Position numbers and translations under genes: made by a program | Virus record (IMG/VR): IMGVR_UViG_3300035034_000343 | Location: 1 to 20,075 of that record | DNA from: a virus | DNA length: 20,075 nucleotides | Direction: 5' to 3' (one strand) | Notes under the pieces: model-generated | Databases searched by the model: none | The model's input: only the letters and a program-made list of their open reading frames with translations | What the model was told of the DNA's origin: nothing | Shown here: one piece after another, positions 785 through 20,075 of the stretch | How the letters are laid out: each line of letters begins with the position of its first letter | Position numbering within the stretch: position 1 is the stretch's first letter

Positions 785-2542
785 ATGGCAATATGGAATA
801 ACACATCCAAACCAAAACAGGAGAAATACTCAGGTAGCATGGATTCTTCCCTTAAGAGTAAGGGAATGTTCCATGTGGAACCACCGGAGGAACAAAAAAA
901 TACGAAATATAAATATTTCCAGAAGGTTGGAATGCGTAGACCGGAAGCTATTGCTAAGAATTCCGTAGCTCTTAATAATGATTGGAATAACACCGCATAT
1001 TCCCACATTGAACAGGATAAGACCTTTTCAGACCTAATGTATGCAAGGGCATCTGAGGATAAGCCCAACGGTCTTGCAGATTACCGTATGATGGCAGGCT
1101 TCTCGGAAGTTGCAGATGTGCTTGACGAAATTTGCGACGAGACAATTAACGTCGATGAGAATCAAGAAATTGTCAAATTATCTCTAGTTGGAGATGATCT
1201 GGACTCCGATAAGAAGAAAGACCTTGAAGAAGAATTTGCTAGATTTATAAACCACTTGGAACTCGAAGACAACGGAGAAAGATATTTTAGGCAATTTCTA
1301 ATTGAAGGTGAATTATACTTCGAGCTTATCGTTAGGGAGGATTACCTAAGACATGGCGTGGTTGCAATCAGGAATTTACCCGCAGACCAGTTTGATCCCG
1401 TATATGATAATATACAAACCATGCTGGTGAAAGCTTTCATCTATAGGAAGCCAATTTTCTCGTCCATTGATCCAAAAGTGGTTGAGCGATGGGAATATAT
1501 ACCATTTGAACAAAATCAGGTTCTTTATATTAATAGTGGTCAATACAATGAATCCAAAGAGTTTGTTATTCCATTTATTGAGAATTGCCGTAGGGCATAT
1601 AGACAGCTTTCCATGATCGAAGATTCCGTGGTAATTCATCGGATGGTTCACGCTCCTCTTCGATTCGTTTTCAATGTTGACGTTGGAAGGCTAAATGTCC
1701 CACAGGCCGAATCTTATCTTAGGAAGTTACAAAGTCAATATTGGTCTACCAAGACATTTGATGCAGATCAAGGAGATATTGTTAAAAAATACTCTCCTCA
1801 ATCCACTATGGATAGTTTCTGGTTTGCTAAGAGGCAGGGTCAAGAGGCCACTACAGTCGACACATTCGGGGGGCAACCCAATGATGGTAACTTGGAAGTT
1901 TTGGATTGGTTCATTAAGAAACTTTACAGATCTCTTAAAACTCCAACATCTCGTTTGGATTCTGATACAAGCTTCAACGACGGAACTGAAATGCTTAGGG
2001 AGGAACTTAAATTTGCTAAGATGATTATTCGTCAGCAGAAAATGTTTGCCTCTGGGATTAAGCGAGCTTTCATCACCCATCTTAAATTTTGTGAAAAGTT
2101 TGATGATTGGGATCTATACGAAGAAAATGTAAAAGTTCATTTCAATTCTCCTACTAATTTCTATGACATGAGAGAGAGTCAGAAGCTCAACCTCAAAATG
2201 GAAATTTTCAATAATGTCACTGCCAATGAAAATGTATCGTCCATATGGGCGATGAAAAAGTATTTGGATTGGAAAGATACTGATATTCTAGCCAATGTTG
2301 AATTTCTTCGTAAAGAGGCTAGTATTCAATTTGAAATTGATCAGATTCGCACAAATGGTCCTAAATGGAAGGAGATGCTTGCACAACAGGCCGAAGAGGG
2401 TATGGGCGGTGACATGGGTGGAATGGGTGGAGGAGATTCTGGTGGCGGTATGCCCCCAGATTTCGGCGGCGCACCTGTGGACGACGGTATGGAGGATACC
2501 CCTGAACCCGACGCCGAAGTTCCCGATGAACCTACTCAATAA
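785..2542 (+). CDS. 20: Portal vertex protein, T4 gp20-like
   Basis: This 585-residue protein is the dodecameric portal at the head vertex through which DNA is packaged and ejected. Recognition rests on the gp20 core: the APLRFVFNVDVG segment (about residues 290-301), a region around DQGDIVKKYSP, the FWFAKRQGQEATTVDTFGG block (about 345-365) and KKLYRSLKTPTSRL (about 380-393). These follow the T4 and cyanophage order. Length is somewhat above T4 gp20 (about 520) because of a C-terminal Gly/Met-rich stretch (GMGGDMGGMGG region, about 540-565) and an acidic proline-rich tail. Start chosen because TAAATA sits 5 bases upstream. The 3' end overlaps by 7 bases the end of a minus-strand membrane peptide gene. 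Confidence 0.95.
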   Translation: MAIWNNTSKPKQEKYSGSMDSSLKSKGMFHVEPPEEQKNTKYKYFQKVGMRRPEAIAKNSVALNNDWNNTAYSHIEQDKTFSDLMYARASEDKPNGLADYRMMAGFSEVADVLDEICDETINVDENQEIVKLSLVGDDLDSDKKKDLEEEFARFINHLELEDNGERYFRQFLIEGELYFELIVREDYLRHGVVAIRNLPADQFDPVYDNIQTMLVKAFIYRKPIFSSIDPKVVERWEYIPFEQNQVLYINSGQYNESKEFVIPFIENCRRAYRQLSMIEDSVVIHRMVHAPLRFVFNVDVGRLNVPQAESYLRKLQSQYWSTKTFDADQGDIVKKYSPQSTMDSFWFAKRQGQEATTVDTFGGQPNDGNLEVLDWFIKKLYRSLKTPTSRLDSDTSFNDGTEMLREELKFAKMIIRQQKMFASGIKRAFITHLKFCEKFDDWDLYEENVKVHFNSPTNFYDMRESQKLNLKMEIFNNVTANENVSSIWAMKKYLDWKDTDILANVEFLRKEASIQFEIDQIRTNGPKWKEMLAQQAEEGMGGDMGGMGGGDSGGGMPPDFGGAPVDDGMEDTPEPDAEVPDEPTQ

Positions 2543-5680: not shown

Positions 5681-6346
5681 ATGTCGATAAAACTTAAACT
5701 GATCGCTGAGAATCCCGAAAACCTTGGAGATTTTGAGATTATTGAGGAACAGAATAAAATTGGAACCCCATCCACTCTATATGTAGCTGGTCCAATGATA
5801 GGATGTAACCAAAAGAATAAAAACGGAAGATACTATGATTTCGACTCAACTAGACCCGAAGTTAATAGATACATTCAAGAGATGGTCAATCAAGGTAGGG
5901 CAATGGGGGAACTCAACCATCCAGCTTCTGGTGATGTAAATCTCGAAAGAGCATGTCACCTAGTTACAGAAATGCGGGAAATAGAAGATGGCTACTATGG
6001 TAAAGCTAAAGTCTTATCGACTCCATGTGGTCACATTCTCCGTTCTCTGGTAAATGATGGAGTCAAGATTGGAATGTCAACCCGAGCTTTGGGGTCACTT
6101 CAGGAGTCTAAGGATTATAACCTAGTTCAAAATATGCATTTGGTTGCGGTTGATGCTGTTGCTGATCCGTCACATACTAAGGCATTTGTGAATGGTATCC
6201 TAGAATCAAAAGCTTGGGTAGTTGCAGATGATGGGTCGTATGAACAGATCTACGAAAACTTAGAAAAGGCCATAAAAACAATGCCCAAAAAAGATATGGA
6301 TTCATATCTACGTGAGCAGATCGTTAAATTCATCAAATCAATCTAA
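5681..6346 (+). CDS. 21: Prohead core protease, T4 gp21-like
   Basis: This 221-residue serine protease matures the prohead by cutting scaffold, core and capsid proteins, in T4 after (L/I)xE. The family signature is clear: GRAMGELNHP with the catalytic His80, the LERACHLVTEM segment, GYYGKAKVLSTPCG, then KIGMSTRALGS with the nucleophile Ser133, and VDAVADPS with the likely acid residue (Asp158 or Asp162). Length is close to T4 gp21 (212). It is followed after 8 bases by the small core gene, whose TAAATA overlaps this gene's stop codon. Substrate-like sites are visible in the capsid protein and in right-end proteins of this window. Confidence 0.93.
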   Translation: MSIKLKLIAENPENLGDFEIIEEQNKIGTPSTLYVAGPMIGCNQKNKNGRYYDFDSTRPEVNRYIQEMVNQGRAMGELNHPASGDVNLERACHLVTEMREIEDGYYGKAKVLSTPCGHILRSLVNDGVKIGMSTRALGSLQESKDYNLVQNMHLVAVDAVADPSHTKAFVNGILESKAWVVADDGSYEQIYENLEKAIKTMPKKDMDSYLREQIVKFIKSI

Positions 6347-6664: not shown

Positions 6665-7537
6665 ATGAAGAAAAATTTGAAGAATCTCTTTTCCGAAGAT
6701 GTGCAGAAAATCCTAACAGATGAAACTCTCACTGCCATCGAAGAAGCCATCGAAGTTAAACAAACATTAGCAGTTGAATCTGCTCTTGCCACACAGGATG
6801 ATGAGTATGCTGAGAAGCTAAAAACACTCATCAAGTCCATCGATGCTGATCATACCGATAAAACTAAGCGTATTATGGAGGCTTATGATAAAGATAAGTC
6901 CGTGAAGCTTGTCAATCTCGTTAAGAAGTATGAGCGTGAGCAAGGTTCGGATCTACATAAATTTAAAAAGAGTATTGTCGAATCTGTAGGAGCTTTCATC
7001 GATGAATTTATCAATGAGTCAATCTCCAAAGAAGATCTCACACAAGCTGTTAATAATAAAGCCGCTTATAATGTCCTCAAGAATCTCCGTGGAGTTCTCG
7101 CAATCGACAGTGTAGTTATGAAAGAATCTGTTTCAGCCGGTCTTAAAGATGCTAAAGATAAAATTGATTCTCTTGTAGCTGAGAATGCCAAGGTTAAAAA
7201 TAATTTTAAAATTCTTAAAGAGCAAAAAGAAAATTCTGACAGAAAGTTATTCCTAGAGCAGAAAACTTCCAAATTCTCCGAAGATAAAAAGAAATTTGTA
7301 TCAAAGGCTCTTGGTGACAAATCGGCGGAATTCATCAAGGAGAACTTTGATTACACAATGCGTCTCTTCGATAAACAAGAGAAAAAGCAAATCCGAGTTA
7401 TTAAAGAAGAAGCGATTGAACGACGCTCTGTCAAGCCAGATTTTGTTAAGAATGAAAAAGTTCTAGCGGAAAAGGTAAATAATATCAAGGACGCATACGA
7501 TCCGTATGTTGCCGAAATGGAAAAAATGAAATTTTAA
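6665..7537 (+). CDS. 22: Prohead scaffold (core) protein, T4 gp22-like
   Basis: This 290-residue protein forms the internal scaffold on which the capsid shell assembles and which the gp21-type protease then degrades. It is almost entirely charged and helical with long coiled-coil stretches (about residues 55-110 and 165-255), rich in Lys and Glu and lacking Cys and Trp. Size and place (directly before the capsid gene, after protease and small core gene) match T4 gp22 (269 residues). Short (L/I)xE sequences such as AIEE-A near residue 27 and further ones in the C-terminal half could be protease sites. The sequence is poorly conserved in this family, so context carries much of the call. Confidence 0.85.
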   Translation: MKKNLKNLFSEDVQKILTDETLTAIEEAIEVKQTLAVESALATQDDEYAEKLKTLIKSIDADHTDKTKRIMEAYDKDKSVKLVNLVKKYEREQGSDLHKFKKSIVESVGAFIDEFINESISKEDLTQAVNNKAAYNVLKNLRGVLAIDSVVMKESVSAGLKDAKDKIDSLVAENAKVKNNFKILKEQKENSDRKLFLEQKTSKFSEDKKKFVSKALGDKSAEFIKENFDYTMRLFDKQEKKQIRVIKEEAIERRSVKPDFVKNEKVLAEKVNNIKDAYDPYVAEMEKMKF

Positions 7538-7600: not shown

Positions 7601-9067
7601 ATGAATAATATCCCACAAACACAAGTAAACGAAAGCAAAGTTCAAGGCATTGTTAATAAATGGCGTAAAGTTCTGGATTATACCTCTGATACAATCAAGC
7701 CAATCCAAAACGAACACACTTATAAATGTGCAGCTATGCTTCTCGAAAACCAAGAAAAGTGGTGTATCGAAGAAAGTAACGTCGGAGCTTCCGGTGGTGT
7801 CTTTGGCGCAACTCAATCCGTTGGATCGGGTATTGCGAACTCAGATTCCTACGCCGCAGGTGATGCACGTCTTCCTAAGATCCTCATTCCTATGATTCGA
7901 CGCACTTTCCCAGAATTGATCTCCAACGAAATCGTTGGTGTTCAGCCAATGGGTGGTCCAGTAGGACTCGCTTTTGCACTTCGTTACGCATACCAAGGGG
8001 ATACTCTTGGAACTGGTATCGATGGTAAAACCGTCCCTACAGGATCTCCTACTACTCGTGGTAACGGCTCGTCCGATTACACTGGTAACGCTGGACTCCC
8101 TAACGACGAAATGGGTTATCAACTTCTGGATACACGTTTCACTGGTACTTCCAGCGCATTCCTCTCCGGCCACGCCGAGTGGAGCTTCGCTGACCAAGAC
8201 CGTGGTGTTGCAGAACTTCTTGCTAATTACGAGCTGACCGGAAATATCCCTCAGATCGAGCTTAAGTTCGAAAAGACCGCTGTTGAAGCAGGAACTCGCA
8301 GACTCGCCACTCGTTGGTCTGTAGAACTTGAGCAAGATATCAAAAACATGAACGGTATTGATATCGACGGGGAACTCACTAACGCAATGTCGTATGAGAT
8401 CCAAGCCGAAATCGACCGCGAAGTTGTGATGCGTATGATCCAAACCGCGTTTAACGCTGGTTTTGGTGCTGGTTACTCCATCTGGAGTCCGGTTAGTGCT
8501 GATGGTCGTTGGACTGCTGAACGTAACCTTACATTCTATCAACGTCTTATCATCGAGGCTGGCCGTATGGCCGCTCGTAACCGCCGTGGTGCTGCTAACT
8601 TTGTTATCGCCACCCCTCGCGTTTGCTCCATTTTGGAAATGCTTCCAGATTTCAAAACTTTTGAAATCAGCGGAACTGTTACCACAACTGGTGTTGGTAT
8701 TGCCAAAGTTGGTACTGTCGGATCACGTTTCACCGTTTATCGTGATACAAGGACTGAAGTTCAGAATTCTTCCCTCTACTCGCCTAATTACTACACTAAC
8801 GCACCTAACGGTGGTGGTGGTGTTGAATACGCGCTCATGGGTTATAAAGGTTCTGAATACTACGACACAGGAATTATCTACTGTCCGTATATCCCTATCA
8901 TGGTGCAAAGGACTATTGGACCGAACGATTTCGCGCCTCGCGTTGGACTCATGACCCGTTACGGAATCGTGAACAACATCTTTGGTGCTGATCTCTTCTA
9001 CCATCTCATTATCGTTAAAGGACTCGGAACGGCGTTTACGCCCGGATCGACCTCCACTTATCTGTAA
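7601..9067 (+). CDS. 23: Major capsid protein, T4 gp23-like
   Basis: This 488-residue protein builds the capsid shell. The motif IVGVQPMGGPVGLAFALRY matches the T4 gp23 block CGVQPMNSPTGQVFALR, and the later MAARNRRGAANFVIATP and YKGSEYYDTGIIYCPYIP follow the same family order. A protease site of the T4 type is seen at I56-E57-E58 before S59, close to T4's cleavage after residue 65, so about 58 residues would be removed in the mature shell. Codons are visibly richer in C-ending forms (AAC, ATC, TAC, GGT) than in neighbouring genes, as expected for very high expression. It has a 63-base leader after gp22 with no TAAATA near the start, unlike most genes here, and contains a weak AGGG/CCCT hairpin at 7558-7572. 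A strong terminator follows. Confidence 0.97.
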   Translation: MNNIPQTQVNESKVQGIVNKWRKVLDYTSDTIKPIQNEHTYKCAAMLLENQEKWCIEESNVGASGGVFGATQSVGSGIANSDSYAAGDARLPKILIPMIRRTFPELISNEIVGVQPMGGPVGLAFALRYAYQGDTLGTGIDGKTVPTGSPTTRGNGSSDYTGNAGLPNDEMGYQLLDTRFTGTSSAFLSGHAEWSFADQDRGVAELLANYELTGNIPQIELKFEKTAVEAGTRRLATRWSVELEQDIKNMNGIDIDGELTNAMSYEIQAEIDREVVMRMIQTAFNAGFGAGYSIWSPVSADGRWTAERNLTFYQRLIIEAGRMAARNRRGAANFVIATPRVCSILEMLPDFKTFEISGTVTTTGVGIAKVGTVGSRFTVYRDTRTEVQNSSLYSPNYYTNAPNGGGGVEYALMGYKGSEYYDTGIIYCPYIPIMVQRTIGPNDFAPRVGLMTRYGIVNNIFGADLFYHLIIVKGLGTAFTPGSTSTYL

Positions 9068-9191: not shown

Positions 9192-10661
9192 ATGGCGAAG
9201 ATTTATAAAACTGATGAGGTGGTTAAAAATTTCATTGAGGTTCATGGTGATAGATATGATTATTCTAAGTATGTATACCCCGGTAGAAAAGAACTTAAGG
9301 GTATTGTCATATGTTCTAAGCATGGGGAATTTGAAACATCTCGTATGCATCATATGAAAGGCATTGGATGTCCTGAGTGTGCTGGAGTTCCAAGAGGGGG
9401 GTTTAAACGTAAGAGTCGAGATCAATTCATGGTAGAATTAGAAGAGAAATACGACAAGTTTTCAGAATATGATTTTTCTAAGTTTGTATATAAAAATAAT
9501 ACTACTAAAGGTATTGTCATATGTCCTAATCATGGGGAATTTGAAATTACTCCAAAACACCTCATACGTCGTGGTTACGGATGCCCTGAGTGTTCAGGCA
9601 AAAAGAAATTAACATTGGAGGTTATACAGGATAGATTAGAGATTTCTAGATCTGAAAATATATACAAAATATCACCCGACCAGATATATATTAATAATAA
9701 AACTCCTATCAAAGTTTTATGTGAGATTCATGGTGAGTGGTTGGTAAGACCTGACAACCTCTTAAATTCTAATACAAGATGTCCAAAATGTTTTGGATCT
9801 ATATCTGGAATAGAATTGGAGATTTTAAATTTTGTGAAAGAGTGTGATCCATGCGTGGTAGGTAGTAGTAAAAAAATAATCTCCCCCATGGAGATAGATA
9901 TTTATTCACCAGTAAATAAATTAGCAATTGAGGTAAATGGGCTATATTGGCATGGAGAGATTAACGGAAAGGATGTGGGATATCATTTAAACAAGACTAA
10001 TAGATGTTTAAGTGAAGGTATAGATCTATTACATATATTTGAAGATGAGTGGATTAATAAGAAAGATATATGGAAATCCATGATTAGTAATAGATTTGGT
10101 ACGTCTGATAAGATTGGGGCTAGGAAATGTGAGATATTAAACGTCTCGTCATATAATTCGAATAAATTTCTAAATGATAACCACTTACAAGGAGAGTCTA
10201 AAGGATCTGTCAGGATGGGGTTATATTACAATGGATTACTTGTGGCTTTGCTTGTGATGGGTAAGAGTCGATTTGATAAAAGTGTAGAATGGGAAATACT
10301 TAGGTATGCTAATATTAGGAACATGTCCATCATTGGAGGATTCTCCCGCCTTTTCAAACATTTTAAAAATATATACTCACCGGAATCCATTGTAACATAC
10401 GCTGATAAGCGGTATTCTAATGGTAATTTATATAAAAAATGTGGGATGATTGAGAAGGGGGATAGTAGGCCAAATTATTATTACTTTAATAAGCATGAGA
10501 TGGTTCGTCACAGTCGGCATAAATTTCAGAAACATAAATTACCAGATATATTGGAAACGTTTAATATTGATAATTCTGAAAAGGATAACATGTTGATGAA
10601 TGGCTATGATCGTATTTGGGATTGTGGTAATAAGAAATTCTTGTGGACATCGGTTAAATAA
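9192..10661 (+). CDS. Free-standing Vsr-like homing endonuclease 1
   Basis: The frame is open further upstream, but the ATG at 9192 fits the TAAATA spacing and matches the paralogue's start, giving 489 residues. Three zinc-knuckle repeats (about residues 8-64, 76-133, 140-200) each carry C-x2-H-G-x-(F/W) and C-P-x-C (ICSKHGEF/CPEC, ICPNHGEF/CPEC, LCEIHGEW/CPKC). A nuclease core follows (about 203-300): MEIDIY, then LAIEVNGLYWHG and HIFEDEW, the pattern of Vsr-like PD-(D/E)xK homing enzymes known from split-intein loci of environmental phages. A C-terminal domain (about 310-489, ARKCEILNV, NHLQG, RMGLYYNG, GGFSRLFKHF) is of uncertain fold. Such enzymes cut uninvaded alleles so that their gene spreads. 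It lies between gp23 and a small virion gene, comparable to segD in T4. Confidence 0.8.
   Translation: MAKIYKTDEVVKNFIEVHGDRYDYSKYVYPGRKELKGIVICSKHGEFETSRMHHMKGIGCPECAGVPRGGFKRKSRDQFMVELEEKYDKFSEYDFSKFVYKNNTTKGIVICPNHGEFEITPKHLIRRGYGCPECSGKKKLTLEVIQDRLEISRSENIYKISPDQIYINNKTPIKVLCEIHGEWLVRPDNLLNSNTRCPKCFGSISGIELEILNFVKECDPCVVGSSKKIISPMEIDIYSPVNKLAIEVNGLYWHGEINGKDVGYHLNKTNRCLSEGIDLLHIFEDEWINKKDIWKSMISNRFGTSDKIGARKCEILNVSSYNSNKFLNDNHLQGESKGSVRMGLYYNGLLVALLVMGKSRFDKSVEWEILRYANIRNMSIIGGFSRLFKHFKNIYSPESIVTYADKRYSNGNLYKKCGMIEKGDSRPNYYYFNKHEMVRHSRHKFQKHKLPDILETFNIDNSEKDNMLMNGYDRIWDCGNKKFLWTSVK
10655..10660 (+). promoter_or_regulatory. Late-promoter-like TAAATA before the 124-aa virion-type gene
   Basis: GTTAAATA overlaps the stop of endonuclease 1 (TAA 10659-10661) and ends 5 bases before the ATG at 10666. 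The end of the mobile gene thus carries the next gene's promoter core. Confidence 0.55.
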
Positions 10662-11931: not shown

Positions 11932-12135
11932 ATGAAAGATATTGAAAAGATAGCAGGTGAATTATATGAGACTTATTGTTTGGCGGTCGGAGGAGTAGCT
12001 TTTAATGGCGATGCACTTCCAACTTGGGAAGAATTTGGATCAGATTCGACCAAGACCAAGCAATCGAATGCGTGGAGGGCAGTTGCTAAAATATCTGGTC
12101 TCGACACATCATCTATTTTAGATGATGTGAAATAA
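11932..12135 (+). CDS. Small protein of unknown function (67 aa)
   Basis: The product begins MKDIEKIAGELYETYCLAVGG and continues with LPTWEEFGSDSTKTKQSNAWRAVAKISG. The W-E-E-F...AWRAVAK pattern resembles small phage proteins of about this size in which a helical pair surrounds a P-x-W motif; no function is known to me. It lies between the two spike-type genes. Upstream is a variant element, TAAATT (11919-11924), 7 bases before the ATG. Its N-terminus resembles the leader of the right-end proteins (D-x-x-x-I-x-G-x-L-Y), with LYE at residues 11-13. Confidence 0.65.
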   Translation: MKDIEKIAGELYETYCLAVGGVAFNGDALPTWEEFGSDSTKTKQSNAWRAVAKISGLDTSSILDDVK

Positions 12136-13760: not shown

Positions 13761-14390
13761 TTATCTAATTTCATCCACAAGTCCATAGTCCAAACACTCT
13801 TGAGCGGATAGATATAGATCATGTTTTAAAATCTCTTCTAGGCGTTTCATGGGAATTTTGGTATTCTCTTTGTAGAAATCCTTAAGGACTTTCATAAGCT
13901 TTTTGGTATCATTGAAACCACCTTCCAAGTCGGAGAATTTCCCATAAAGAACTGTAGACAATTCATGGACTAGCATGTATCCATACTTACCTATAAATCT
14001 TTTTTTACCAACGCATGAGATTAGAGTAGCCGCCGATGCTGCCAATCCATCTACGTATGTATATACATCAGTATTCATAGATTTTATTGTATCGACGGTT
14101 GAAAAGGCTGGGTATATCTCCCCTCCCGGTGATTGTATATGTAAATGTATGGTGGGTTTATAGTCCCCCCCCAGAGATAGCTTCAATGTTTGTATTTTTA
14201 AGTCCATGTCCATGAGACACTTATTAAGCTCTAAACATGATTCAGATGTGATATCATAGTAGAATAAAATCCTATTCTCAGTTGTCCTGATACTTCCCGA
14301 TCCATAAGACACATCATCTGAAGATGTCATTATATTGATTTGGGGGATTGGACTTTCCAAATCACCACTTGTCATTTTTTTATATTTCAT
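13761..14390 (-). CDS. clpP: ClpP-like serine protease
   Basis: This 209-residue protein has the ClpP fold signatures with a complete catalytic triad: Ser119 in DGLAASAATLIS, His142 in GYMLVHELSTV and Asp191 in KHDLYLSAQECLDYGLVDEI. IQSPGGEIYPA (about residues 86-96) is the substrate-strand region. Length is typical of ClpP. No ClpX/ClpA ATPase is in the window, so it may use a host partner, or act as a free peptidase or in virion maturation; the gp21-type protease already covers the prohead. It follows nrdA by 14 bases on the same strand. Start is uncertain: ATG 14390, or a second in-frame ATG five codons later (MTSGDLE), since TAAATA overlaps the first ATG. Confidence 0.85.
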   Translation of the reverse strand: MKYKKMTSGDLESPIPQINIMTSSDDVSYGSGSIRTTENRILFYYDITSESCLELNKCLMDMDLKIQTLKLSLGGDYKPTIHLHIQSPGGEIYPAFSTVDTIKSMNTDVYTYVDGLAASAATLISCVGKKRFIGKYGYMLVHELSTVLYGKFSDLEGGFNDTKKLMKVLKDFYKENTKIPMKRLEEILKHDLYLSAQECLDYGLVDEIR

Positions 14391-16175: not shown

Positions 16176-17867
16176 TTAGTGGGATTTCATCCATTTATAT
16201 TTTTTATTTCCACAATCATAAATCCTGAAATAACCCAAATCTTTCATTATTTCTTTTTCGGTTTTTTCTTTGGGGAATCCTTTTGATACTAACACATCCT
16301 TTCTAAAAGTAAACCTATTATGTCTTTTTAATCCTTTGACATAAAAATAATTAGGATTGGTTAGATGTTTTTCCAAAAATCCCAATTGGATGTAGAGATT
16401 ACCTGTTCCGTAACGCATATTACAAAAAGATATTATATTATTTGGATTTCTTTTTTTAATGAAATTTTTGAAAAGTTTAGACGCTCCACCGACAACATTA
16501 TAATTTATCTTATTACAATATCGAAGAAGTTCATATTCGTCTTTTTCGGTTTCATTATTACCCATATTCTTTCTCTTTTTGCCGAAGGTCATTAAAGAAA
16601 CCAATTCACCATTATAGAACAACCCCATACGATGCTTCGATACACAAAACCCCTGTATGTGATTATCTATTAAAAATTTCTTGGCTGTTTTGTAGTCAAC
16701 TTCAAATATTGAACATTTACGAGCGAAAATTTTATTATTTGTTTTATTAAAAGCGTTTTGTAACATACTTTCACATATACTTCTATTGGATATCCATTCA
16801 TCTTCAAATATTTGAATTAATCGGTATCCTAAGTCATTCATCTTTTTTAATTTATCAGAGTGATAATTATTTGATTTAAAAATATCACTATGCCAATATA
16901 GTCCATTAAACTCAATTCCAATTTTATGACTCTCCGATAAAATATCAATTTCTTTAATATTTTCCATCCTTCTAACGCTTCCCTCTATATCGTCAATACC
17001 TATCGATTTTAAAAATTCTAAAATTTCCAATTCATATGAGCTTACGAATGATGTGCATTTGGGGCAGTGTCCCTTACCAGATACGTGGATGTAAGCTTTG
17101 ATCTTAAAATCTCCATGAATTGGGCAAGTTATCAACGCATCATCGTGTGATTTTGTATAAAATGTTTTATCATATGAATATTTTCCACCATGTAATGATT
17201 TAGACTTTTCTATGAAAGTGTCTAAATCATGTGTCATGTTTTCAACTTTACAATTCTTACATCCGAAAAAGATACTATCAAGTGCATTTCTCGGGGTGGT
17301 TTTATATTTTCCATGTGAGATGCATGTAGGATATATACTTGTTTGTAGATTTTTGAAATATCCAATATCACTAAAATTATATTTTTTGAAATTATCCTTT
17401 TCTGATAACCGTTCAATAAAATCATCACCAGTAGTTCTTAATTTATCAGCGGTTCTTATTTCACCACACGACGGACATCCCTGCTTATTGTTTATGTGAT
17501 TACTAGCCTTCATGGAAAATTTTCCATGAATCGGGCAGATAATATCAACATAATCTAAAGCGTGGGTATATATTACTGAAGTATAGTCATAAAAATCTCC
17601 ATGTATTTTTGTGGCCTTTTTTAAGAAGTATTCTATATCTTTGCGATGCCTGTTACCATTTGCTGCATTCACGCACCCCCTACACCCCCCGTTTTCTGTT
17701 ATTAGATGATTACTTGGAGTGGTTGTAAAATGTCCATGTTCTCTACATACAAAAGAGGTTGGGGTTGATGTGTTTTTATAAATTGTGTTATTGTAATCAA
17801 AACGTTCGGAGTGTTTTTTTATACATTTATCTATAAATTGTTCAGTTGTAACCGTAGGTTTTCTCAT
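16176..17867 (-). CDS. Free-standing Vsr-like homing endonuclease 2
   Basis: This is a 563-residue paralogue of endonuclease 1. I chose the ATG at 17867 rather than one eight codons upstream because TAAATA ends 5 bases before it. It has four zinc-knuckle repeats instead of three (CREHGHF/CRGC, CPIHGKF/CPSC, CISHGKY/CKNC, CPIHGDF/CPKC) over about residues 8-265. A Vsr-like nuclease core follows (KEIDILSESHKIGIEFNGLYWHS, then QIFEDEWIS), then the shared C-terminal domain (ARKCSIFEVD, NHIQGF, RMGLFYNGELVSLMTFGKKR, GGASKLFKNF, YDCGNKKYKW). It sits between nrdB and nrdA on their strand. Both nrd genes look complete, so it is intergenic, not an intron or intein insertion. Confidence 0.8.
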   Translation of the reverse strand: MRKPTVTTEQFIDKCIKKHSERFDYNNTIYKNTSTPTSFVCREHGHFTTTPSNHLITENGGCRGCVNAANGNRHRKDIEYFLKKATKIHGDFYDYTSVIYTHALDYVDIICPIHGKFSMKASNHINNKQGCPSCGEIRTADKLRTTGDDFIERLSEKDNFKKYNFSDIGYFKNLQTSIYPTCISHGKYKTTPRNALDSIFFGCKNCKVENMTHDLDTFIEKSKSLHGGKYSYDKTFYTKSHDDALITCPIHGDFKIKAYIHVSGKGHCPKCTSFVSSYELEILEFLKSIGIDDIEGSVRRMENIKEIDILSESHKIGIEFNGLYWHSDIFKSNNYHSDKLKKMNDLGYRLIQIFEDEWISNRSICESMLQNAFNKTNNKIFARKCSIFEVDYKTAKKFLIDNHIQGFCVSKHRMGLFYNGELVSLMTFGKKRKNMGNNETEKDEYELLRYCNKINYNVVGGASKLFKNFIKKRNPNNIISFCNMRYGTGNLYIQLGFLEKHLTNPNYFYVKGLKRHNRFTFRKDVLVSKGFPKEKTEKEIMKDLGYFRIYDCGNKKYKWMKSH

Positions 17868-17872
17868 GATAT

Positions 17873-17878
17873 TATTTA
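17873..17878 (-). promoter_or_regulatory. Late-promoter-like TAAATA (minus) before homing endonuclease 2
   Basis: GGTAAATA on the minus strand ends 5 bases before the ATG at 17867, between the end of nrdB and the endonuclease. Confidence 0.55.
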
Positions 17879-17919
17879 CCCATAGTATCACCTTTTAATA
17901 GAAAAAGTCAATCAAGTTA

Positions 17920-19026: not shown

Positions 19027-19032
19027 TAAATA
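19027..19032 (+). promoter_or_regulatory. Late-promoter-like TAAATA before the 110-aa gene
   Basis: GTTAAATA ends 5 bases before the ATG at 19038. With the minus-strand element at 18973-18978 it makes a divergent promoter region of about 70 bases. Confidence 0.6.
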
Positions 19033-19037
19033 TACGA

Positions 19038-19370
19038 ATGGGTTGGATGAAAGACATTGGTAATATATACGATAATGAGCCTATCACAGAAAGCTGGAAG
19101 AATGCCACACCTGCTGGAGATAAATTATCATATCGTAATAATAAGATGGGGATGGGAGTGTCTAATATGGCCGCTGACAGCCTTGCGGGTAATGTCCAGT
19201 TCGGTAATCCATACGAACAAGAGGAAGTCCTTGTGGACGGTTCTATGGACAAGCAGGAGCTATTGGGAGAGATTGATAAGTTACTTTCGGGATTGTCCGA
19301 TTCTTCTCCTACCGATAGGGTTGCAGTGATGGTTTTAAGTCAACTTAAAAAGAAAATATATAATATATGA
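19038..19370 (+). CDS. Unknown protein with leader-like N-terminus (110 aa)
   Basis: I do not recognise the body of this protein: a polar middle (KLSYRNNKMGMGVSNMA) and a C-terminal helical part (DKQELLGEIDKLLSGL, DRVAVMVLSQLKKKIYN). Its N-terminus, MGWMKDIGNIYDNEPITES, shares I7-G8-x-x-Y11 spacing with the next two genes and has I16-T17-E18 before S19, a site of the (L/I)xE type cut by T4 prohead protease. This would fit a head-packaged protein with a removable leader; it is an inference from a short motif. Its stop overlaps the ATG of the next gene (ATGA). Confidence 0.65.
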   Translation: MGWMKDIGNIYDNEPITESWKNATPAGDKLSYRNNKMGMGVSNMAADSLAGNVQFGNPYEQEEVLVDGSMDKQELLGEIDKLLSGLSDSSPTDRVAVMVLSQLKKKIYNI

Positions 19371-19386
19371 ATGATTATGATAATAT
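19354..19386 (+). repeat. 33-base direct repeat, copy 1
   Basis: The 33 bases covering the upstream AT-rich element and the first six codons of the gene at 19367 are repeated exactly at 19893-19925. This copy is preceded by A where copy 2 has T, so it lacks the TAAATA hexamer. Confidence 0.9.
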
Positions 19387-19894
19387 GGGAAAGATGTATG
19401 CAACTTTATTATTAGAAGAGGCTGGGTATGTGGTGGGATTCCATGGGAGTTATGGTAATAAAACCTTCGATAATAAAAATGAAAGAGGAATTTGGTTTGC
19501 TGAAGATGTCAATAGTGATATAATTGAGTATTATTCTAATAGAGGTGATGGTAGAACTGTAATTGAGGCTAAATTAAAATTAGGTAAAAATTTAGATCTT
19601 TCCATGTATAATGCAGATGAAATGATGAACAGTTCTTATGCTGACTCATTTTTAAATGATATGGAAATTGAAGATGAGGATGTTTCTAGATTTATGGATT
19701 ATTTCTTCTTTGAAGATTACGAAACAAATCAAGACGAATATGGGGAACCTACTTTATCTGCATCTGAGATTTTGAATCATGTGATCAATTTATTGTTGAT
19801 ACCGAATAAATTATATGATTCCGTTTCTATTTTAGAAGGAGATGATCACATGACATACTGTATGTTAAATGAACAAAATATTGAAATGATTTAA
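19367..19894 (+). CDS. ADP-ribosyltransferase-like protein with leader
   Basis: This 175-residue protein has, after a 20-residue leader, VVGFHGSYGNKTFDNKNERGIWFAED (about 21-48), then IIEYYSNRG and VIEAKLKLGKNLDL. This is the layout of small ART-fold domains seen in polyvalent phage proteins (F/Y-H-G-x at the NAD-binding strand, G-x-W/H-F-x, a Y in the following helix, then V-x-x-V-x-L-x-x-x-N-x-L). A C-terminal TYCMLNEQNIEMI resembles the usual last strands and could supply the catalytic Glu. Such enzymes transfer ADP-ribose from NAD to host proteins, as T4 Alt does. The leader MNDYDNMGKMYATLLLEE ends in an LEE-A site at 16-19. Activity is not proven by sequence; the acidic region 85-135 is unusual. 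Confidence 0.5.
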   Translation: MNDYDNMGKMYATLLLEEAGYVVGFHGSYGNKTFDNKNERGIWFAEDVNSDIIEYYSNRGDGRTVIEAKLKLGKNLDLSMYNADEMMNSSYADSFLNDMEIEDEDVSRFMDYFFFEDYETNQDEYGEPTLSASEILNHVINLLLIPNKLYDSVSILEGDDHMTYCMLNEQNIEMI

Positions 19895-19897
19895 ATA
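19892..19897 (+). promoter_or_regulatory. Late-promoter-like TAAATA before the last gene
   Basis: TTTAAATA includes the stop of the ADP-ribosyltransferase-like gene and ends 8 bases before the ATG at 19906. Confidence 0.55.
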
Positions 19898-19925
19898 TAT
19901 AATATATGAATGATTATGATAATAT
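19893..19925 (+). repeat. 33-base direct repeat, copy 2
   Basis: Exact second copy of 19354-19386, spanning the start region and first codons (MNDYDN) of the gene at 19906. The 539-base offset equals one gene unit, suggesting duplication or recombination between leaders. Confidence 0.9.
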
Positions 19926-20075
19926 CGGAGAGCTATACTCCGAAATGGCACTTACCAATATGCAGAAGATTGGTAAGTGGGACGATAAGAAAAATAGACA
20001 TGGTTATGATAAGGCATCCGTGGGTATATTATCATCTCCATCTGGATTGAAGAAGCTGGAAGATAAATTCAATCG
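19906..20075 (+). CDS. Leader-bearing protein, 5' part only (runs off window)
   Basis: Fifty-six complete codons are visible. The protein begins MNDYDNIGELYSEMALTNM, with the first six residues identical to the ADP-ribosyltransferase-like protein, followed by a basic region (KIGKWDDKKNRHGYDKAS) and LLS-like PSGLKKLEDKFN. The body is unrecognised. An IGE at residues 7-9 is the only (L/I)xE match; the 16-18 position is LTN instead. The start is fixed by the duplicated 33-base segment and TAAATA 8 bases upstream. Confidence 0.7.
   Translation, partial: MNDYDNIGELYSEMALTNMQKIGKWDDKKNRHGYDKASVGILSSPSGLKKLEDKFN

Follow-up and report, generated by a model that had tools for sequence, protein, structure and literature searches.

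Exchangeable N-terminal leaders ending in predicted prohead-protease sites on late proteins of uncultivated T4-like phages

Head-gene region and the three leader-bearing proteins

The window, by which we mean the whole analysed stretch of DNA, is a 20,075-nt fragment of an uncultivated virus (IMGVR_UViG_3300035034_000343). It contains a T4-like head-gene region in the order gp20-gp21-gp22-gp23, with Pfam matches for gp20 (3.9e-84), the gp21 protease (1.3e-24) and gp23 (1.7e-83). Predicted cuts are marked with an arrow throughout.

785..2542, + strand: gp20 portal protein, assigned by Pfam; a context gene without leader
5681..6346, + strand: gp21-type prohead protease (Peptidase_S77), with catalytic His (GELNHP) and Ser (GMSTRALGSL) present
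6665..7537, + strand: scaffold at the gp22 position, with 7 candidate sites, the N-terminal LFSE↓D being conserved
7601..9067, + strand: gp23 major capsid protein, assigned by Pfam, with maturation site CIEE58↓S59

The His and Ser of the window protease align with two Ala positions of the solved T4 gp21 construct (5jbl), and the same two positions are His and Ser in wild-type T4 gp21. The protease also has a candidate site near its own N-terminus, LIAE↓N at 10. A ClpP-like protease, recognized by eye beside the head genes (13761-14390, − strand; QSPGGEIYPAFSTVDTI...VDGLAASAATLI), lacks a leader of the kind described below, as do nrdB and the ribonucleotide reductase large subunit. Two large, similar-looking ORFs (9192-10661, + strand; 16176-17891, − strand) contain repeated Cys-rich CPxHG units and are likely homing endonucleases; one is inserted after gp23, the other between the two ribonucleotide reductase genes.

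At the right end of the window, ORFs starting at 19038, 19367 and 19906 encode proteins 1, 2 and 3, whose leaders belong to class A as defined below.

19027..19037, + strand: late promoter element of protein 1, TAAATA box at 19027-19032, 5 nt before the start codon
19038..19370, + strand: protein 1, 110 aa, class A leader followed by a small clade-conserved family (C-terminal ..EQEE..LKKKI)
19038..19091, + strand: leader of protein 1, MGWMKDIGNIYDNEPITE, predicted cut between E18 and S19 W20 (SWK)
19354..19386, + strand: first copy of the exact 33-nt repeat, spanning bases upstream of protein 2 and its first leader codons
19367..19894, + strand: protein 2, 175 aa, class A leader followed by a domain resembling ADP-ribosyltransferases at motif level only
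19367..19420, + strand: leader of protein 2, MNDYDNMGKMYATLLLEE, predicted cut between E18 and A19 (AGY)
19892..19897, + strand: TAAATA late-promoter-like box of protein 3, 8 nt upstream of its start
19893..19925, + strand: 33-nt exact repeat, copy 2, at protein 3
19906..20075, + strand: protein 3, of which the window contains the first 56 of about 287 aa (completed via G013/L176), class A leader followed by a conserved MALTNMQKIGKW... domain
19906..19944, + strand: leader of protein 3, MNDYDNIGELYSE, likely cut between E13 and M14 A15 L16

Protein 1 begins MGWMKD-I7-G8-N-I-Y11-DNEP-I16-T17-E18↓S19, protein 2 MNDYDN-M7-G8-K-M-Y11-ATLL-L16-E17-E18↓A19, and protein 3 MNDYDN-I7-G8-E9-L-Y11-SEMALTN (full start MNDYDNIGELYSEMALTN, interrupted by the window end). 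The motif [IM]7-G8-x-x-Y11 is therefore common to all three translations, with every number as the first-pass annotation had given it. The sites ITE↓S and LEE↓A, which it had placed at residues 16-19 of proteins 1 and 2, are present and fit the protease rule obtained from gp23 homologues; an (L/I)xE-type site thus ends the propeptide of both proteins, and protein 3 has it only in the form YSE↓M. For protein 3 it had pointed to IGE at 7-9; this site is probably mistaken and was dropped, since IGE is not conserved in the homologues, E↓MAL is conserved in all of them, and Y11-S12-E13↓M14 fits better. The 67-residue ORF at 11932 had been offered as a further member; its LYE does lie at 11-13, but with no late promoter box, no homologue and a weak match to the leader it was dropped as the fourth member.

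Predicted TAAATA boxes lie upstream of proteins 1 and 3, and protein 2 overlaps protein 1 by 4 nt. A TAAATA box exactly 5 nt before the start, the dominant spacing of the clade, was found at 291 late genes of the window and its relatives, the window genes being those with + strand starts at 785, 6355, 6665, 9192, 10666 and 19038; the same spacing occurs in pelagiphage HTVC008M (9/14) and not in the T4 regions examined. SD-like sequences precede only 0.9% of late genes. If the start-site spacing of T4 holds, the late mRNAs would begin at the AUG, i.e. be leaderless.

The 33-nt repeat is the sole exact direct repeat of at least 24 nt in the window. As it covers the start regions of proteins 2 and 3, their leaders are not independent, and one was probably copied from the other. 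The first residues of protein 1 differ, which makes it an independent occurrence; the window thus holds two independent occurrences and a copied leader.

Homologues of protein 1 are present in G006 and G007 and, via profile comparison, in a nine-genome family; a direct search for its relatives found none. One homologue keeps the class A motif despite its diverged sequence (MWINDIGKLYTE↓SW), and E↓SW is kept behind differing leaders in others (YTE↓SW, LEE↓SW). Protein 2 likewise has a diverged homologue that keeps the class A motif, MSNCFKDLGLIYENM, beyond which no relatives were found. Searches of protein 2 against Pfam, PHROGs and NCBIfam gave no match. Its motifs HGS...GIWFAED...YYSNR resemble the PF18760 member of G006 (L104), and the alignment of protein 2 to this ART-PolyVal protein is weak (E 0.34). 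Because no profile matched and the AlphaFold model, built on two sequences only, failed (pLDDT 39), we only infer that protein 2 may be an ADP-ribosyltransferase.

In the homologues of protein 3, E↓MAL[ST]N is invariant while the leader varies. Profile search found no sequence family for protein 3, and its model (pLDDT 76) had no significant match in Foldseek. The top fold matches were of zincin type but weak, with Z at most 3.8, and the invariant HRIGH lacks the Glu of the zincin HExxH. No cultivated relatives of proteins 2 and 3 were found among 50,697 phage records. In L177 and L178 (6001 onward), the homologue of protein 3 is broken after about 120 residues; sister contigs have intact copies.

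The last 127 bases of the window (19949-20075) are identical to bases 1-127 of L176, a locus of the 72.7-kb contig G013 (IMGVR_UViG_3300035034_000461). G013 very likely continues the window, as the identical overlap has the size of an assembler k-mer. It completes protein 3, directly followed by two further leader genes, MNDQQQISEIYE↓SLDFEKRG and MSSFDDIGNLYVEMILEKGGG.

Two leader classes on late genes

Relatives were drawn from IMG/VR (80 gp23 loci, 58-86% identity), and the sample comprised 14 contigs, the window and 13 relatives, with about 2,700 called genes. A gene was taken as late when [TC]TAAATA, the T4-type late box, lay within 24 nt of its start. Class A leaders have a charged stretch followed by hydrophobic-[AG]-x-[LI]-Y with the Tyr near 11-13 (..Dxx[IL][AG]x[LI]Y..). 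Class B leaders follow Mxx[FY]xx[FY]xxE, with aromatics at 4 and 7 by definition; examples are MKTFYQFFWE↓A, MIPFKKFFFE↓S and MISFHEYFLIRE↓A. Both definitions were made by eye on the first contig set. We used fixed rules with controls, counting each protein family once; an iterated matrix search was dropped because it overfitted and gathered unrelated N-termini.

The search for more leader-bearing proteins that the first-pass annotation had called for found about 35 otherwise unrelated late-gene families across the window and the 13 related contigs, a figure reached because 38 late families match a leader rule and a few endonucleases do so by chance. Late genes have leaders 4-7 times as often as other genes do. 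Over the 14 contigs, the class A core was found in 11.2% of late and 1.6% of non-late families (an internal control position in late genes gave 0.6%); class B in 7.8% versus 2.0%; and the site at 8-24 in 30.4% versus 9.7%, with 46.2 families observed compared with 14.6 ± 2.9 in shuffled N-termini. A stricter core, [ILM][AG]x[LIM]Y with the Tyr at 8-16, gave 6.4% of late versus 0.6% of non-late families. For the first eight contigs, the values were 10.9% versus 1.8% for the class A core, 7.0% versus 2.2% for class B, and 15.8% versus 3.7% for [ILM]xE↓[AGS] with P1 at 8-22; control motifs (D- or K-containing, reversed) were flat between late and non-late families.

Six further contigs were fetched after the rules had been fixed. 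Class A was found there in 12.2% of late and 1.4% of non-late families, class B in 9.8% and 2.1%, and the site in 32.0% and 10.4%, exceeding all shuffled controls, although the first set already contained relatives of most of these late families. For the 18 late families without such relatives the direction was the same, yet only the site clearly beat shuffling.

Several class B leaders occur in G013, e.g. MKTFLQFLTE↓D and MQSFIKFFYE↓D; since G013 is the probable continuation of the window, classes A and B probably coexist in the window's own genome. More distant relatives (gp23 identity 59-64%) also have class B leaders, e.g. MKSFKEFILEK. Conserved late families of the portal, head-tail adaptor, sheath, tube and baseplate wedge are without leader and rarely have any site near the start. 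A DNA methyltransferase (MFEINKIYNEN; G003/G016) fits class A by chance, with no late box and no site. Some endonucleases do so as well, those of GIY-YIG type owing to their AGIY, and their exclusion changes nothing.

Protease site and leader exchange

The site rule for this lineage was derived from gp23 and is therefore independent of the leaders. An alignment of 79 gp23 homologues showed I/L/F at P3 of the maturation site in 70, Glu at P1 in 64 and A/S/G at P1' in 67; the window has IEE↓S, and its relatives conserve [ILF]xE↓[AS]. A canonical site follows the leader in about 70% of leader-bearing late families and is absent in about 30%, including protein 3 of the window (YSE↓M). The site is present in 67% of late class B families versus 11% of non-late class B families; for class A, part of its association with the leader follows from the definition, as [LI]Y already provides P3 and P2.

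The two classes replace each other on homologues. In one orthologous family, present in nine genomes, the leader is of class B in eight (e.g. MKSFYQFFWE↓AFSDLGKLSPEQL) and of class A in the ninth, G014 (MKLTQKDQSEIANLYSEILVE↓AFSDLGKLSPEQL), with AFSDLGKL following the cut in both. The first invariant column after Met1 is the Glu of the predicted site, and homology begins there. This family is weakly GNAT-like, below the Pfam cut-off. Other cases of exchange are LIRE↓AKF versus VLTE↓GKF and VLEE↓G versus LLLE↓N, the latter being the ends of a class B/class A pair. A cassette adjoining nrdB in G006 holds a homologue of protein 1, an unrelated leader protein of 109 aa and a homologue of protein 3 with a class B start. 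As read from this arrangement, the middle gene, in the slot of protein 2, is exchanged in G006, and a leader is kept. The tags, their concentration on late genes, the sites, the intact protease and the exchange between homologues can all be read directly in the genomes.

Proteins carrying the leaders

Several carriers have recognizable enzyme domains. An S-adenosylmethionine (SAM) lyase of G004 has a class A leader with LNE↓S (PF23780, 1.2e-9), and an ART-PolyVal protein of G006 has a class B leader (PF18760, 1.4e-12), the only match to this profile over 17 contigs. CCA-adding/poly(A)-polymerase carriers (PF01743, to 2.9e-25) come with HD and once with NUDIX. Further ART-like, ParB-like, zincin-like and kinase-like carriers were recognized by eye only; for the kinase-like carrier L214 the best PDB matches are protein kinases, weakly (E 0.1 over 35 residues). 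Some leader genes, e.g. the SAM lyase, are without a TAAATA box of their own. Conserved site-bearing late families of unknown function show IWE↓S, LQE↓A and IYE↓A.

In G010 and G012 (L132-L143, L150-L153), T4-CTS-like leaders are followed by FFPGAFKPPHK or LLPGGFKPP, a nucleotidylyltransferase (NMNAT-like) signature. An 82-aa ORF of G006 (L107, 5448, + strand) has a class A-like start and then resembles the N-terminal part of gp23 (VDGYAAGDNRIPKILGG); it is possibly a capsid-protein fragment or decoy.

Proposed function and alternative explanations

We propose, as highly probable, that the leaders are interchangeable capsid-targeting propeptides and that their carriers are injected internal proteins comparable to T4 IPI-III and Alt. 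Proteins of unrelated kinds, synthesized late in infection, would start with a tag of class A or B, 10-21 residues long, and the tag would dock its carriers into the prohead scaffold core. The gp21-type protease would then cut after the Glu of the hydrophobic-x-E↓small site and free the mature protein inside the head. The mature carrier would enter the next host with the DNA and work there immediately on targets of the host or its defences. What we infer from the genes described are the steps of docking, cleavage, packaging and injection and, for most carriers, proteins 1-3 of the window among them, the biochemical role. The suggestion of the first-pass annotation that the shared N-termini form a cargo-packaging leader ending in a gp21-type site thus gains strong support from several comparisons: family-weighted counts show the leaders enriched in late genes, and further genomes repeat this; one leader type replaces another precisely at the site; these phages also have leaders like the T4 CTS; and the carriers include proteins with activities in host takeover or against restriction. 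The packaging itself is a prediction. One may go further and regard the two classes as two addresses in the prohead core, differing in docking partners or copy numbers, with a leader swap setting the dose or place of the injected protein, but this we consider rather doubtful.

The shared N-termini might instead reflect common descent only, through partial paralogues or a copied 5' end without targeting function. The 33 identical nucleotides over the start regions of proteins 2 and 3 are just what such copying would leave. However, the three proteins are unrelated beyond the leader, homologues retain the motif after their sequences have diverged, two dissimilar leader types replace each other at the protease site, and the enrichment holds when each family is counted once, so we give this explanation only a slim chance. 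Even less probable is that translation initiation has shaped these N-termini, with the 5-nt promoter spacing and maybe leaderless mRNAs favouring A/T-rich first codons such as those of MNDYDN. The many late genes with exactly this spacing and the rarity of SD-like sequences would suit it; yet most late genes, encoding portal, sheath, tube, baseplate and scaffold, share the promoter geometry without a leader. A codon preference accounts neither for the Glu site nor for leader exchange at that site, and the leader type is associated with the protease site here.

The leaders may also dock to another part of the virion (portal, neck, tail tube or inner shell face), making the carriers structural proteins rather than injected effectors. 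Protein 1, in its small clade-conserved family without enzymatic domain, and the conserved families with IWE↓S, LQE↓A and IYE↓A would agree with such a role. Many carriers, though, are enzymes without structural logic (SAM lyase, CCA-adding enzyme, ART), and carriers are patchily distributed, with differing genes in the same slot. We therefore regard structural docking as improbable, about as much as common descent.

If the leaders are capsid-targeting propeptides, their exchange on homologues would offer a phage a way to convert an ordinary gene into head cargo. A leader readable from sequence would further provide a list of the hidden injected proteins of uncultivated phages. One clade already yields a SAM lyase, ADP-ribosyltransferases, CCA-adding enzymes and many family-less proteins as candidates for the first minutes of infection.

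Comparison with known systems

The mechanism itself is already known, whereas a second class of leaders, the exchange of leaders and the presence of enzymes among the predicted cargo are new. In the T4 record, the corresponding N-termini are MKTYQEFIAE↓A (IPII, IPIII), MKTFKEF...STITE↓A (IPI) and MAKINELLRE↓S (gp24), with cuts placed by the L/IxE rule. The IPIII-type capsid-targeting sequence (CTS) of T4 has its targeting residues at 4 and 7, while its processing involves residues 8 and 10 (PMC9026906). As with the T4 CTS, a gp21-type protease is encoded in the same phage and a short propeptide stands on unrelated proteins. The comparison with T4 IPI-IPIII and Alt leaders, also called for by the annotation, gave a divided answer. 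Class B, the leaders of G013 included, is spaced like the T4 CTS: it has the aromatic pair at residues 4 and 7, and position 10 is the commonest one for its Glu. The three class A leaders of the window lack the aromatic pair and resemble neither CTS nor Alt leader. Class A is therefore a variant of the same kind of device and not the same element as the T4 CTS.

Like the carriers described here, T4 IPI, IPII and IPIII have a short N-terminal propeptide, an (L/I)xE cut and unrelated mature parts, and anti-defence roles have been reported for T4 internal proteins (PMC9026906, PMC12373910). In contrast to T4, the window leaders are class A, the classes alternate on homologues, and the carriers include enzymes, with about 35 families over few genomes. 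T4 Alt, a packaged ADP-ribosyltransferase, is matched by ART-type late proteins with leader and protease site, but the Alt leader MELITELFDE is unrelated in sequence and the confirmed ART, that of G006, is ART-PolyVal (PF18760). In SPN3US-type giant phages, ejection and head proteins have N-terminal propeptides, and a gp21-related protease cuts at a similar motif (PMC7411985); several of these propeptides, however, exceed 100 residues, and the phage lineage is another. Polyvalent proteins of phages and conjugative elements include ARTs among others and are predicted to enter with the DNA (PMC5512222). Their enzymatic repertoire overlaps with that of the carriers, but their domains are fused in one long chain, whereas here every small protein has its own leader.
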